From Candidatus Laterigemmans baculatus (GTDB lineage: Bacteria; Planctomycetota; Planctomycetia; Pirellulales; Pirellulaceae), in NCBI RefSeq assembly GCF_010367455.1, contig NZ_WRPR01000112.1, positions 1 through 64,000 of the forward strand: a stretch of 64,000 nt of DNA, in the 5' to 3' direction. Under the pieces are notes generated by a model, which saw nothing but the letters and a program-made list of their open reading frames with translations, did not search any database and was not told the origin of the DNA. This document shows, piece by piece, positions 20,745-59,380 of the stretch. Positions within the stretch are counted from its first letter, which is position 1. Each line of letters opens with the position of its first letter. The translations under genes were made by a program, and so were the position numbers.

Positions 20745-22132
20745 TGTGCAGCGGCTGAGCGATTTGCGGCGGTGGCCGGTTCGCGTTCGGGGGGGCTCTG
20801 AAGCTGCTCGGCGAGGCCGTCGTCGAGCGGCGAAATCAGCTCCGCCCTCCCCTGCCGCCACTCCTTGCCGATGATCAGCCGCGCTCCTTTGCTGAACGTC
20901 AGGTACGACCAAGTCCACTGCAGGAACACGAACACGCGGTTGCGGAAGCTGCTCAAGTAGTAGATGTGGATCAGCAGCCAGGCGAGCCAGGCGATGAACC
21001 CGTTCAGCTTGGCTTGGCGGCTCTGCAGGATTGCTCGGCGACGCCCGATCGTGGCCATCTGCCCTTTGTCCCAGTACTGGAACGGCTTGCGTGTCGGCGG
21101 CTCGGTTCCCGCCGCGGATGTCGCCTGTCGATGGCGGATTTCGGCCAGAATCGTTTTGCCGACGTAGCGGCCCTCCTGCATCGCCACCGGCGCCAGACCG
21201 GGGAGCGGGCGGCCGCCGGGGCCAGCGACGCTGGCGAGGTCTCCGGCGACGAAGACGTTGGGGTGGTCGGGAATCGAGAGATCCTCGCCGACCACCACCC
21301 GGCCCGCCCGGTCGAGCGGGACACCGAGGCTTTGGCCGATCCGATTGGCCTGGACTCCAGCCGCCCAGAGGACCGTTCCGGCGTCGATCCGCTGGTCCTG
21401 CATGTTGATCCCGCGAGCGTCGATCGCGGTGACCGGTTTACCGAGCACGACTTCCACGCCGAGCTGGTTCAGCGCCTTGTGGGCCCAGCTCGCTTGGTTG
21501 GCGTCGAACTGGTTGAGGATCCGGTCGACGGCGTCGACCAGGATCACGCGGGCCTGAGTCGCGTCGATGGCGCGAAAGTCGCGAGCCAAAGCGAAGCTGG
21601 CCATCTCCGCGATCGCTCCCGCCAACTCGACTCCGGTCGGTCCACCCCCGACGATCACGAAGGTCATCCAGTGGGCCTGCTCGGCGGGGTCCTTGCTGCG
21701 TTCGGCTTTTTCGAAAGCCACCAGCACGCGGCGGCGGATCTCGGTCGCCTGTTCGAGGTTCTTCAGCCCCGGCGCGTACTGCTCCCACTGCGGATTGCCA
21801 AAGTAGCTGTGCGTCGCCCCGCAGGCGACCAGCAAATAGTCGAACTCGAGCGGCCCGGCATCGCTCAGCACCCGCCGATTGGGCACGTCGATCGACTGGG
21901 CTCGCGCCAGCAGCGTGCGGACGCGGGGGTAGGGACGGAGCATGCTGCGGATCGGCGAAGCGATGTCCGACGGATCGAGCCCCGCCATCGCCACTTGGTA
22001 GAGCAGCGGCTGGAACAGGTGGTGGTTTCGCTGGTCGACGATGGTGACATCGACCGCTTGGCTCTGGCCGAGCACCTTTGCGGCGTTGATTCCCGCAAAC
22101 CCGCCACCGATGATCACCACGTGGGGAAGCAA
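20726..22132 (-). CDS. ndh: Type II NADH dehydrogenase (NDH-2)
   Basis: The 468-residue flavoprotein transfers electrons from NADH to quinone without pumping protons. It has an FAD motif VVIIGGGFAGINAAKVLG at 5-22, the NAD motif FVIVGGGPTGVELAGAIAEM around 160-180, and CxxH-free quinone/FAD segments such as FVAGDLASVAGPGGRPLPGLAPVAMQ. The C-terminal stretch FIAWLAWLLIHIYYLSSFRNR is membrane-associating, as in other NDH-2. The extreme C-terminus is encoded by a family-E repeat arm. It lies behind the metK terminator with its own start at 22132. Confidence 0.93.
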   Translation of the reverse strand: MLPHVVIIGGGFAGINAAKVLGQSQAVDVTIVDQRNHHLFQPLLYQVAMAGLDPSDIASPIRSMLRPYPRVRTLLARAQSIDVPNRRVLSDAGPLEFDYLLVACGATHSYFGNPQWEQYAPGLKNLEQATEIRRRVLVAFEKAERSKDPAEQAHWMTFVIVGGGPTGVELAGAIAEMASFALARDFRAIDATQARVILVDAVDRILNQFDANQASWAHKALNQLGVEVVLGKPVTAIDARGINMQDQRIDAGTVLWAAGVQANRIGQSLGVPLDRAGRVVVGEDLSIPDHPNVFVAGDLASVAGPGGRPLPGLAPVAMQEGRYVGKTILAEIRHRQATSAAGTEPPTRKPFQYWDKGQMATIGRRRAILQSRQAKLNGFIAWLAWLLIHIYYLSSFRNRVFVFLQWTWSYLTFSKGARLIIGKEWRQGRAELISPLDDGLAEQLQSPPEREPATAANRSAAAQSATTR

Positions 22133-22198
22133 TTCAGCACACTCCGGTAAGAAAGGTTGTTCCTTCCTTGGTATGCATCGGAGGCAGAAACAGCAACC

Positions 22199-22230
22199 CG
22201 GTACTCAGTACTCAGTACCGCTTCGCGGAG
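22199..22230. repeat. Family-B short tract
   Basis: GGTACTCAGTACTCAGTACC followed by GCTTCGCGG, a short diverged member of the (GTACTC)n family, lies just beyond the metK terminator and before the ndh start. Confidence 0.7.
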
Positions 22231-22237
22231 CTCCACG

Positions 22238-22269
22238 AAAAAACGGACCCTCGGGTTAGCGAGGGTCCG
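22238..22269 (-). terminator. Intrinsic terminator downstream of metK
   Basis: Read on the minus strand, a perfect 10-bp stem CGGACCCTCG/CGAGGGTCCG (22269-22260 with 22253-22244) with loop CTAACC is followed at once by TTTTTT (22243-22238). It lies 37 bases after the metK stop and is the clearest terminator in the window. Confidence 0.9.
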
Positions 22270-22306: not shown

Positions 22307-23500
<1,194 letters not shown>

Positions 23501-56603: not shown

Positions 56604-56797
56604 GTTTCAGGGAGCCGGTAGCCGGTAGCCGGTGGCAGGTAGCCGGTGGCCGGTAGCAGGTAGCCGGTAGCCGGTAGCCGGTAGCCGGTAGCAGGTAGCA
56701 GGTAGCAGGTAGCATTGAGATTTGAAATTTGAGATTTGATATTTCAAATATGAACTTTGTTCTCACTCTTCACTCTTCACCCTTCACTCTTCACTCT
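56604..56797. repeat. (GCCGGTA)n heptamer and (TTCACTC)n tract
   Basis: 56608-56714 is (GTAGCCG)n mixed with GGTAGCAG, starting right after the solute-binding protein stop. 56762-56814 repeats TTCACTC, and the last repeats form the final codons KSEE and TGA stop (56798-56800) of the arrestin-like gene. No gene is supported. Confidence 0.9.
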
Positions 56798-58237
56798 TCA
56801 CTCTTCACTCTTCACCAGCAGTCTTCGTTCGTCGCGGTCGTAGCCGACAATTTGGGCTGGTCCGCTCCAGCGTTTCTGTCGCTCGATGTCGGCGACCTGG
56901 GAGAGCGAGAGGCCTCTGATGTGCAGCATGATTGGCTGCGGCGGATCGGGATAAGTCGCCAGGAAATTCGTTCCCTCGCGGTCGGCGAAGGAGGGTTCGT
57001 CGGAGTCGGCGTAGAGGCTTCGGCGCTCGATGTCGACCGATACGTTCATCACGAGGCCCTGCACCGCTTCGACCACCTGGTCGATCATCTCAAATTGTTC
57101 GCGGTTGGCCCAAACTAGATTCACCGTTTCCTCGAAGCTGACGCCTGCCGGTTCAGGGGAATCCTGCGGCAGCGGAGTGGACGGATTGCTCCCTTGCTCG
57201 CCGAGCCCCGCAAAGGCGTCGTTCCCCAATTCGGCGTCGCGGGCCCCAGGGAGCAGTGCCGCGGCGGCGGCCGGTTGTGTCGGGGGAACCACCTTGATTT
57301 TTTGTTCCTCGACCCAGTCGGGCCAACGGGGGATATCGATGCGGAGCTTCGCCGTCCACTCGATGTCGTTGTCCGACAAATCGATCGAATAGATGGGCCG
57401 CATCGGCAGCGTCGCTTCGATCGGGAAGCGATGTTCCTTGTCAGCCTGCAATTCTCCCGCGGCCATCACGGAGATCCGTTCCTCGTGCACCGTCTCCGCA
57501 TGCGTCGTTCGGTTGGTCCCTGAACCGGAAACGCAAACTTCCTTGGCGTGCAGGTGCATCGTGATTCCGTTGAGGGTGATGTTCTTCTTTGGTTTGACGA
57601 CCAACTCCGCACGGACCGTTTCGCCTGGACTGAGGCGCGGCGTATCGAGTCGGAATTCGACGGGACCGAGCCGACGTTTGGGCAGGACTTTGCGGAAGAA
57701 CCACCAACCGCCGCTGAAAACGGCGACGACGGCCCCAAAGCACCAGAAAAACGGATTGAGCAAAAAGACCAGCCCGAACACGATCAAAAAGAGGGTGATC
57801 AGAAAAGTCGCGATCGGGCCGTTCGATTTCGCCTTCACTTCCGGGGCTCCCGACTCGGGAGCGGAAGTCACATAGACGCGAAACGGGTGGGCCACGGTGG
57901 GATCGAACTTCCAGGGCAGTTTGGCGGTGGCCCGAACCACATGCTCCACCGTCAGAAAGCTGCCGTGATAGGTCGGAGGCCAAGTGCCGCTGGCGAGATC
58001 GAACTCGTACCGGTAGGTCTCGCCTGCCCGCCACTCGCCCTCAAAAGCCGTCACCGAATCGACTTCGCCCGAATCGATATTGCCACGTCCATGGGTTTCC
58101 CAACGGGTGCTGATCTGCAGTCCCTTGCAATTAAAATCGCCGTCGGGCCGGACCACGACCGTCCCACGCACGCGCTCGCCCCCGCGGACGATGCGGTCGC
58201 CGTCGGCCATCTCAATCGACAAATCGCACTTTGCCAT
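56798..58237 (-). CDS. Membrane protein with tandem arrestin-like domains
   Basis: The 479-residue protein begins with an arrestin-N-like beta sandwich (residues ~1-128; GDRIVRGGERVRGTVVVRPDG, SGTWPPTYHGSFLTVEHVVRA). Two membrane spans follow (141-160, 163-182), then a second sandwich of the arrestin-C or SpoOM type (~195-320; GPVEFRLDTPRLSPGETVRAEL, EWTAKLRIDIPRWPDW). An acidic linker and a unique C-terminal domain complete it. Arrestins and SpoOM scaffold membrane trafficking or signalling in other organisms. Here the function is unknown. The start overlaps the ATPase gene by 26 bases. Confidence 0.68.
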   Translation of the reverse strand: MAKCDLSIEMADGDRIVRGGERVRGTVVVRPDGDFNCKGLQISTRWETHGRGNIDSGEVDSVTAFEGEWRAGETYRYEFDLASGTWPPTYHGSFLTVEHVVRATAKLPWKFDPTVAHPFRVYVTSAPESGAPEVKAKSNGPIATFLITLFLIVFGLVFLLNPFFWCFGAVVAVFSGGWWFFRKVLPKRRLGPVEFRLDTPRLSPGETVRAELVVKPKKNITLNGITMHLHAKEVCVSGSGTNRTTHAETVHEERISVMAAGELQADKEHRFPIEATLPMRPIYSIDLSDNDIEWTAKLRIDIPRWPDWVEEQKIKVVPPTQPAAAAALLPGARDAELGNDAFAGLGEQGSNPSTPLPQDSPEPAGVSFEETVNLVWANREQFEMIDQVVEAVQGLVMNVSVDIERRSLYADSDEPSFADREGTNFLATYPDPPQPIMLHIRGLSLSQVADIERQKRWSGPAQIVGYDRDERRLLVKSEE

Positions 58238-58991
58238 GCTTCGTTCTCGTCAAAATATGCAGCTGGTCGTACAGGTAGGATTCGATCGCGCGAATGTTAT
58301 TTCCAAATCTCCCAATCAATCGTTCGGCATCCTGCTGACTGATGCGAGGAAGTTCGCCGGGTCGCAGTCGCGCGAGCTCGATCCGGCGATTGAGGATCTC
58401 CACGAGCCGCCGGGCGTCCAGGTGCTCGGAGACGTCGATCGTTCGCACCCGGTAGCCGGCTCGCTCGAGCGGGCCCGCGAGGTCGACATGGGTGCCCAGG
58501 ATCAAAGGCACGCGGCGTCGCAAGACGCGGCGGCGCACCAACCACGGCAGTCGCTGCGCCTCGTCGATCAAGAGCGGAACGCCCACGGGAATCGCCGGAG
58601 TCGGTGCGTCGGCGGCGAGGTAGACATAGGCGGAGTCGGGAAGCTGAGTCTGCAGGGTCAGCAGGTGCGTCGTCTTGCCCCGCCCGCAGTCCCCCATGAA
58701 CTGTAGCGCCCGCATGGAGCAAGCTTTCGTACTCCGACGGGCCTCAGCGGCTGATGGGGAGGGAGCGTGCGGCTCTGCGGCCTGAATCCAAGGAACGAGC
58801 TCGTCGGTTTCAACGACCGCCGCGGCAGCACGTTGCTGGCGGGTCAATTCGCCAAACGGGTTGTAACGCAGATTCAGGTGGGCCAAGGGGAGCCAGGCCA
58901 GCGAGCCTCCGTCGGCTGATCGAAGCTCCACGCTTTCGCTCATTCGCATCGCTGCCGCCGTCGTTTCCAAATCATATTCCCGTGATCCCAT
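58212..58991 (-). CDS. AAA-type ATPase, ExeA/TniB-like
   Basis: The 259-residue protein has Walker A GDCGRGKTT (residues 100-108), Walker B LLIDEAQRLPW (141-150), a sensor-like NNIRAIESYL, and an N-terminal LNLRYNPFGELTRQQ that matches the lead of ExeA/TniB-like ATPases. It is small and lacks any membrane span. The stop lies 26 bases inside the arrestin-like gene, so the two are probably co-translated. The start at 58991 (MGSREY) is chosen; ATGs at 58949 and 58943 also fit, and the frame runs further upstream through a repeat by chance. Role unknown. Confidence 0.72.
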   Translation of the reverse strand: MGSREYDLETTAAAMRMSESVELRSADGGSLAWLPLAHLNLRYNPFGELTRQQRAAAAVVETDELVPWIQAAEPHAPSPSAAEARRSTKACSMRALQFMGDCGRGKTTHLLTLQTQLPDSAYVYLAADAPTPAIPVGVPLLIDEAQRLPWLVRRRVLRRRVPLILGTHVDLAGPLERAGYRVRTIDVSEHLDARRLVEILNRRIELARLRPGELPRISQQDAERLIGRFGNNIRAIESYLYDQLHILTRTKHGKVRFVD

Positions 58992-59380
58992 ATCGTGAGC
59001 CGAAGGCGCTAGCCTCGGGCCCTTTGAGCCGTAGGCGCTAGCCTCGGGCCTCTTGAGCCCATCGTTTCGGCTGCAGAACCCGCGGCTAGCGCCGTCGGCT
59101 GCAGAACCCGCGGCTAGCGCCGTCGGCTCAGGGATCCTTGAGCTTTGTTTCGTGCTCCCCCCTTCTCTATTTTTCCTTAATCTTGGCGGAACATCGACTT
59201 TAAACGGAGGGCTGCGGGATCTGTAGCGGTTAAAACGTTGGCGGCAGCCGGAGGGGAAGATACGATGGCGACGGCATTCGCAGCGCAGCGCGGACTCGCT
59301 CTTTCGCCGGAGGAGTGCCGTGTGCTGTTGCGTCGGATGCTTTTGAATTGATGCTTTTTCCCGCCAACACGAGTCCCACC
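58992..59380. repeat. Family-D element, copy 4, and flanking spacer
   Basis: GAGCCGAAGGCGCTAGCCTC (58996) and TTGAGCCGTAGGCGCTAGCC (59024) are nested left arms. Two right arms (AACCCGCGGCTAGCGCCGTC+GGCT) end at 59131. The rest (59132-59380) has no recognised feature. The ATPase start is 4 bases from the first arm. Confidence 0.8.

Follow-up and report, generated by a model that had tools for sequence, protein, structure and literature searches.

What does a planctomycete do with an arrestin-like membrane protein that is encoded together with a small ATPase? The question arises from a stretch of 64,000 nucleotides of Candidatus Laterigemmans baculatus (contig NZ_WRPR01000112.1, positions 1 to 64,000; hereafter the window, to which coordinates refer unless stated otherwise), where two overlapping genes encode a tandem-arrestin membrane protein and an AAA+ ATPase. 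Arrestin folds serve eukaryotes as cargo and receptor adaptors. Our preferred answer, held tentatively and at a little less than an even chance, is a membrane-anchored bilobal arrestin adaptor that would be controlled by the small AAA+ ATPase dedicated to it. It is based on predicted folds and a predicted hairpin, on gene coupling, on the co-occurrence of the parts also when they are unlinked, and on loop conservation shared by the two arrestin lobes. Relatives come in two versions, a fused one as in the window, with both lobes in one protein, and a split one with the lobes in separate proteins.

Both open reading frames and their overlap were present where the original prediction had placed them, on the minus strand:

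56798-58237, minus strand: gene of the tandem-arrestin membrane protein, 479 amino acids, an open reading frame
58212-58991, minus strand: gene of the AAA+ ATPase, 259 amino acids, ATG at 58991, stop ending at 58212
58212-58237, minus strand: overlap of the two genes, 26 bases

The overlap suggests translational coupling, as judged from the sequence. The exact start of the ATPase is uncertain, since the ~33 residues at its N-terminus show no conservation and are modelled at low confidence, and the frame stays open further upstream. A scan for promoters and terminators revealed no excess compared to shuffled sequences.

Two arrestin lobes around a membrane hairpin

The 479-residue protein was divided as follows:

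57872-58228, minus strand: arrestin lobe 1, residues 4-122 (Pfam and structure model; profile alignment to a stand-alone split protein)
57668-57817, minus strand: two-helix membrane hairpin, residues 141-160 and 162-190 (modelled helices; hydrophobic, with the basic flank PKRR)
57290-57661, minus strand: arrestin lobe 2, residues 193-316 (Pfam and structure model; profile alignment to the split membrane protein)
56807-57136, minus strand: C-terminal alpha/beta domain, residues 368-477 (structure model; strand order OB-like by eye)

Using Pfam, Arrestin_N was detected in two stretches (47.9 bits versus a cut-off of 24.9). Spo0M also exceeded its cut-off (26 versus 23 bits), over residues 193-318 only and with partial cover of the profile (positions 15-136 of 213). 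The AlphaFold2 (AF2) model, calculated with 43 sequences, reached a predicted local distance difference test (pLDDT) of 89.1 and a predicted template modelling score of 0.66, and comprised lobe 1, a pair of long helices separated by a single break residue, lobe 2, a linker of low confidence and the C-terminal alpha/beta domain. Its top Foldseek row was retromer Vps26 (1.9e-16), which was also the best structural match in VIA-align (Z 19.2, root mean square deviation (rmsd) 5.8, 252 residues aligned). Lobe 2 aligned with Spo0M (5cl2; Z 15.0, rmsd 2.6, 122 residues), and TXNIP profile matches reached 1e-9, while a viral fold library gave low template modelling scores and no clear relative. That is, the beta-sandwich lobes are recognised as members of the arrestin clan both by profile (Arrestin_N) and by fold (Vps26). 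Structure prediction and Pfam thus agree with the earlier claim of an arrestin-like domain on each side of a hairpin; non-arrestin folds were not predicted.

The same claim had called the C-terminal domain unique, which did not hold: the profile also matches this domain in most planctomycete relatives, and matches to this region alone occur in genomes of one family (f39). We noted these region-only matches (~340-469) in G243, G380, G400, G327 and others, with no arrestin match listed there. For the window protein, the domain had no Pfam match, and the best match by sequence in the PDB was Rv2074 (E 0.046).

With Vps26 as best fold match, the protein might be a scaffold that shapes, or coats, the internal membranes or vesicles of planctomycetes, the direction in which the original prediction leaned; coat-like proteins have been reported in compartmentalized planctomycetes (PMC2799638). 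However, a fold match means a shared fold and says nothing of function, and the fused pair was also found on contigs labelled Myxococcota, Acidobacteriota, Deinococcota and Lentisphaerota. We give such a scaffold little chance.

A small AAA+ ATPase

The AF2 model of the 259-residue protein is a compact AAA+ ATPase (pLDDT 87.7) with two nucleotide-binding motifs:

58671-58694, minus strand: Walker A, GDCGRGKT, residues 100-107 (K106 in 49/49 sequences)
58554-58574, minus strand: Walker B, LLIDEAQ, residues 140-146 (D143 in 49/49, E144 in 47/49)

Foldseek placed Hda in the top row (1.4e-6), and the best VIA rows were Cdc6/ORC and p97 chains (Z 12.5 to ~11, rmsd 3.3 to 4.7), led by a Cdc6/ORC chain (Z 12.5, rmsd 3.6, 201 residues aligned). 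Walker A, Walker B and fold together place the protein in the AAA+ superfamily; it ends soon after the AAA+ lid helix (residues 233-248). No Pfam or NCBIfam model scored above its cut-off. AAA_22 remained sub-threshold, with weak matches (E <= 0.1) in 33 of the 49 fused-type ATPases and a best value of 9.7e-5, and a search of the PDB by sequence with the ATPase profile gave an RNA helicase as best match (E 0.046).

The original prediction had likened this ATPase to ExeA/TniB. The likeness holds at the level of the AAA+ superfamily but not beyond it: matches to AAA_22, which we take to be the general family holding ExeA/TniB, are weak, and the best fold rows are Cdc6/ORC, Hda and p97. The fold rows shown did not include ExeA, TniB or TnsC, by which an unlisted family is not excluded. 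The NPF box at the N-terminus and the DEAQ form of Walker B resemble those of ExeA/GspA and TniB/TnsC. In ExeA/GspA, a transmembrane segment and a peptidoglycan-binding domain follow the AAA part. The window ATPase has neither and ends after the lid; membership of ExeA was rejected on these grounds. TniB/TnsC have a transposase partner nearby. Neither a transposase nor ExeB was noticed among the recurring neighbours, which were clustered and named by eye rather than identified singly.

The layout of a membrane scaffold plus an ATPase would fit an envelope assembly factor, in which both proteins help to place one large complex, as ExeA-ExeB do for the type II secretin (PMC4098917). The weak AAA_22-type matches point the same way, as does near-universal presence in one order (see below). 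Against this, the ATPase lacks a transmembrane or peptidoglycan-binding part, and no secretion genes were noticed among the recurring neighbours, so that we consider an assembly factor decidedly unlikely.

Conservation of the fused pair

Among 198 genomes of the class, ATPase relatives were detected in 11, each within ~0.8 kb of an arrestin relative. A strong arrestin relative occurred in 12; in the twelfth (G023), the arrestin gene had no neighbouring ATPase, and the fused-type profile detected none. In a phylum sample of 392 genomes, the ATPase profile matched in 12, eight of these below 1e-40. Scanning one genome per species (84,980) with the arrestin profile yielded 84 relatives, the best 80 of which were analysed as 79 distinct loci. 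Several loci stem from one metagenome-assembled genome or genome (for example L074/L075, L106/L116, L089/L109 and L120/L130), and phylum labels of contigs from metagenome-assembled genomes may be wrong from binning. The 79 loci were fetched with the patterns W[KRE]THGRGN and [IVF]DIPx[WFY]PDW, which inflates the conservation of both motifs in our arrestin alignment (A3, 42 of the 79 fetched proteins); the ATPase alignment (A4) comprised 48 of 70 proteins.

An ATPase partner was found at 70 of the 79 arrestin loci, in 69 cases upstream and in the same orientation, 67 of which lie within 130 bases, and once downstream (L119). The upstream pairs overlap in 54 of 69 cases, 17 of them by exactly 26 bases, with start codons chosen by script. 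The pair is thus conserved among relatives, a point on which the earlier claim could have failed had no relative kept it, and we rejected chance or an annotation artefact, since the ATPase recurs beside the arrestin gene. The pair was also found on contigs with the labels Myxococcota, Acidobacteriota, Lentisphaerota, Deinococcota, Pseudomonadota and Schekmanbacteria (L119, L121, L125-L129 and L134), and is therefore not tied to planctomycete membranes. At all eight of these loci the arrestin match stops at about position 330 of the profile and does not reach the C-terminal domain. Evolutionary distances of the two proteins correlate (r 0.85, 68 loci, omitting the truncated L088 and L106; loci without ATPase could not enter), as expected for adjacent genes, and we did not use this as proof.

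Other neighbours, with families named by eye, are common to at most 26 of the 79 fused and at most 11 of 35 split loci; around fused loci they differ between families. We read those that are shared as synteny within related genomes. Tandem duplications of arrestin genes of the fused family were seen at L120 and L129 and on G202:C196 and G260:C759.

The patchy occurrence of the fused version (11/198) and its wide phylum labels could also indicate a two-gene cassette, mobile or defensive, that has spread by transfer. Yet PADLOC gave no match to either protein (0 families at E <= 1), the arrestin protein had no plasmid match and the ATPase no phage match, and the split version is near-universal in one order. 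We rejected such a cassette as the main explanation and see only a very slim chance for it.

A split three-gene version is core to one order

Weak matches in the class genomes resolved into a set of three genes, a version that the original prediction had not noted. The first gene encodes a membrane protein (helix hairpin plus lobe 2), the second a small soluble protein with lobe 1, and the third a related ATPase. From 17 genomes, 18 such stretches were first fetched, 12 of them with the ATPase, and nine of 14 split lobe-2 proteins carry DUF3592. Profile comparison with hhalign aligned the fused with the split ATPase (98.9%, E 1.3e-17), the second hairpin helix plus lobe 2 with the split membrane protein (99.2%, E 6.2e-20), and lobe 1 with the stand-alone split protein (98.9%, E 2.1e-17); because of this, we regard both versions as homologous part by part.

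For counting, strong matches were defined as E <= 1e-18 for the ATPase and <= 1e-40 for the arrestin protein (1e-80 within the window's order), thresholds that were set after seeing the tables; in the list of split ATPase matches, no values fall between 2.5e-19 and 2.7e-7. Counts with split profiles in the class genomes are hand tallies among the matches listed. A strong split ATPase occurred in 54 of the 198 class genomes, all 54 of which also had the arrestin protein. The ATPase and arrestin genes lie together in 45 of them and apart in eight (G142, G150, G162, G170, G059, G002, G025 and G037), where the two arrestin genes are still adjacent; one genome (G043) has them at contig ends and could not be placed. 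Within the window's order, 46 of 49 genomes had both the split ATPase and the arrestin protein and three had neither (G122, G185 and G106, the last with the fused pair only), for which Fisher's test gave 5e-5, a value that ignores relatedness. The split genes are, in other words, core to this order and near-universal in the genomes searched.

The host genome itself (G000) carries both versions. Its split system lies on contig C111, with lobe 2 at 21414-22250, the ATPase at 22707-23321 and lobe 1 between them, and the pair in the window is therefore a second, fused copy. Three genomes (G006, G092, G112) have the arrestin protein without a strong split ATPase; their ATPase is closer to the fused type and lies apart from the arrestin genes. 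Two others (G172, G195) have the lobe-2 protein, with no ATPase and no lobe 1 by the profiles used.

Among odd arrangements, G006 contains two fusions with swapped lobes (L165 and L166; hairpin, lobe 2, lobe 1), with a related ATPase ~33 kb off on the contig of one of these copies. A possible lobe-2 relative with a weaker match (1.1e-12) lies at G119:C508:12149-13495, in a genome whose ATPase match is only weak (3.5e-4).

Invariant in fused and split ATPases are the Walker A lysine, the Walker B aspartate, a histidine after the sensor-1 strand, a lid arginine (R234, which we take to be sensor-2), a tyrosine and the N-terminal NPF box. The two sets differ at the Walker B glutamate. Of the 49 fused ATPases, 47 keep it and two have serine, whereas the split ones replace it (glycine in 10/11, serine in 1/11) and have glutamate or aspartate two residues on. 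Because of this difference, the fused ATPases look able to hydrolyse ATP, while the split ones may only bind ATP, or may use the shifted acid.

This difference bears on another reading, a signalling scaffold, where the arrestin protein would bind an activated membrane sensor or kinase and its AAA-like partner would be a STAND-like nucleotide switch that reports state, without transport or remodelling. The missing glutamate would suit such a switch, and so would weak AAA_16, NACHT and nSTAND matches, more so in split ATPases (nSTAND1 best, 4.1e-7). Spo0M, in addition, is described as an arrestin-clan protein from bacteria that inhibits sporulation (PMC2515105). But the DE motif of the fused ATPases (kept in 47/49) and best fold rows of classic AAA+ type argue otherwise, and among the neighbours clustered and named by eye, we noticed no family of sensors, kinases or regulators that recurs. 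Signalling by such a scaffold appears unlikely to us.

Equivalent loops are conserved in both lobes

Conservation in the fused protein peaks at three places:

58079-58096, minus strand: loop THGRGN of lobe 1, residues 48-53 (T48, G50, G52 and N53 in 43/43 sequences)
57500-57529, minus strand: loop SGSGTNRTTH of lobe 2, residues 237-246 (G238, G240 and T245 in 43/43)
57314-57337, minus strand: DIPRWPDW of lobe 2, residues 301-308 (a form served as search pattern, so conservation is inflated)

A form of THGRGN was likewise a search pattern, yet among the 12 sequences obtained without any pattern (A1), 11 have the loop, and no search pattern was used for the lobe-2 loop (SGSGTNxTTH). In the AF2 model, the two loops occupy equivalent positions between strands of the two lobes. 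We take these to correspond to the finger loop and the C-loop of arrestins; in arrestins, both bind receptors. Conservation extends to the split version: the W.T.G.G loop of lobe 1 was found in 43/43 fused and 13/13 split proteins, E233 and G240 of lobe 2 in 43/43 fused proteins with counterparts in 14/14 split ones, and the E, G, T and R of the lobe-2 loop are conserved in 14/14 split proteins. Over all 79 loci, strict text patterns fitted less often (SGSG..xTT in 45, W.T.G[KR]GN in 70), and loose profile-based forms fitted more.

Loop loss may track loss of the ATPase, on weak sequence evidence. The loose lobe-2 loop pattern was kept in 66 of 69 covered loci with an ATPase versus five of nine without. 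Both loops are lost in the G023 paralogue, which has no ATPase beside it, and the lobe-2 loop is lost in the lobe-2 proteins of G172 and G195, where no ATPase was found. In G006, the copy on the contig of the ATPase keeps W.T.G.G and GT; the other copy has lost the lobe-2 loop.

A possible mechanism

For the membrane-anchored adaptor, we propose that the hairpin would insert into the cytoplasmic membrane and leave both lobes on one face, probably that of the cytoplasm. The lobes would form a Vps26-like two-lobed scaffold, which in the split version two proteins would presumably re-form. Their equivalent conserved loops would be the working face and, by analogy with the crest loops of arrestins, may bind either a membrane protein as client or the ATPase, or each of them in turn. 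Adaptor and ATPase would form a physical complex. The AAA+ partner, on binding or hydrolysing ATP, would switch the adaptor-client complex or take it apart, acting like a clamp-loader or initiator switch and not like an unfolding motor. The role might be the sorting or assembly of membrane or envelope proteins.

Several observations weigh against this mechanism. The ATPase went undetected at nine of the 79 fused loci (one of which, L116, begins inside the arrestin gene). All eight covered loci without ATPase keep W.T.G.G, most of them having been fetched by that motif, which weakens the argument from loop loss, and G112, G092 and one G006 copy keep the loops with the related ATPase unlinked. 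The replaced Walker B glutamate means that hydrolysis may be lost in split ATPases. Finally, neighbour clustering at fused and split loci gave no conserved neighbour from which a function could be read.

We regard as doubtful the wider proposal of an ATP-driven bacterial arrestin machine, that is, a Vps26-like membrane adaptor cycled by its own AAA+ protein, with its two lobes either fused or made as separate proteins, which would be a core feature of one planctomycete order and would occur outside it as well. If true, it would be a bacterial counterpart of the eukaryotic arrestin and retromer cargo adaptors under direct ATP control, a control not known for the eukaryotic ones.

Repeats in the window

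REP-like (repetitive extragenic palindromic) elements lie at 58996-59128, immediately upstream of the ATPase gene, with GCCGWAGGCGCTAGCCTCGGG facing GCCGACGGCGCTAGCCGCGGG; the first form (GCCGWAGGCGCTAGCCTCGGG) has 310 genome copies at <=1 mismatch, and its reversed control 0. Two heptamer tandem repeats were found between two convergent genes, AGCCGGT x14.4 at 56613-56713 and TCACTCT x7.6 at 56763-56815, the second of which reaches the last codons and the stop of the arrestin gene. A 240-base unit is tandemly repeated at 1-827 (3.4 copies, 82% matches).

Comparison with known systems

With Vps26 and the alpha-arrestins (ARRDC3, TXNIP), the window protein shares two arrestin lobes in tandem. 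It differs from them in being bacterial, in the hairpin between its lobes and in its AAA+ partner; no Vps35 or ubiquitin-ligase partner is known for it, and no search for Vps35 was made. Eukaryotic alpha-arrestins recruit HECT ligases through PPxY motifs in the C-terminal tail, but the window protein has a single PPxY (PPTY, residues 87-90) inside lobe 1, where relatives vary, and none C-terminal.

Spo0M offers a bacterial arrestin fold, recognised over lobe 2 by Pfam and by structure. It is soluble and is not known to have a membrane hairpin or an ATPase partner. The window protein covers its profile in part and is predicted to contain the hairpin, and so departs from the full Spo0M architecture. 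Alvarez (2008) placed Spo0M, Vps26 and arrestins in one clan (PMC2515105); the bacterial member named in that paper is Spo0M, and the word "planctomycete" is absent from its main text.

The ATPase resembles Cdc6/ORC and Hda in its AAA+ fold with Walker A, Walker B and lid arginine, and differs from them in lacking a DNA-binding domain after the lid, in having the arrestin protein as genetic partner, and in a distance of 37 residues from the Walker A lysine to the Walker B aspartate, which is short. ExeA/GspA and TniB/TnsC share with it weak AAA_22 matches; ExeA/GspA is set apart by its transmembrane and peptidoglycan-binding parts. DUF3592 membrane proteins share their domain with most of the split lobe-2 proteins, whereas the fused protein of the window has no DUF3592 match in Pfam.

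The original prediction knew of no described system with this pair, and we likewise found no description of an arrestin-AAA+ pair in the titles and abstract beginnings of the literature searched, which mostly excluded subscription papers. We regard the arrestin-AAA+ system as new in its combination; its parts belong to known folds. A conserved pairing in several gene orders, near-universal in one taxonomic order, provides a testable bacterial system for the way in which arrestin adaptors can function in the absence of ubiquitin ligases and G-protein-coupled receptors, and a hypothesis for unannotated core planctomycete genes, DUF3592 proteins included.

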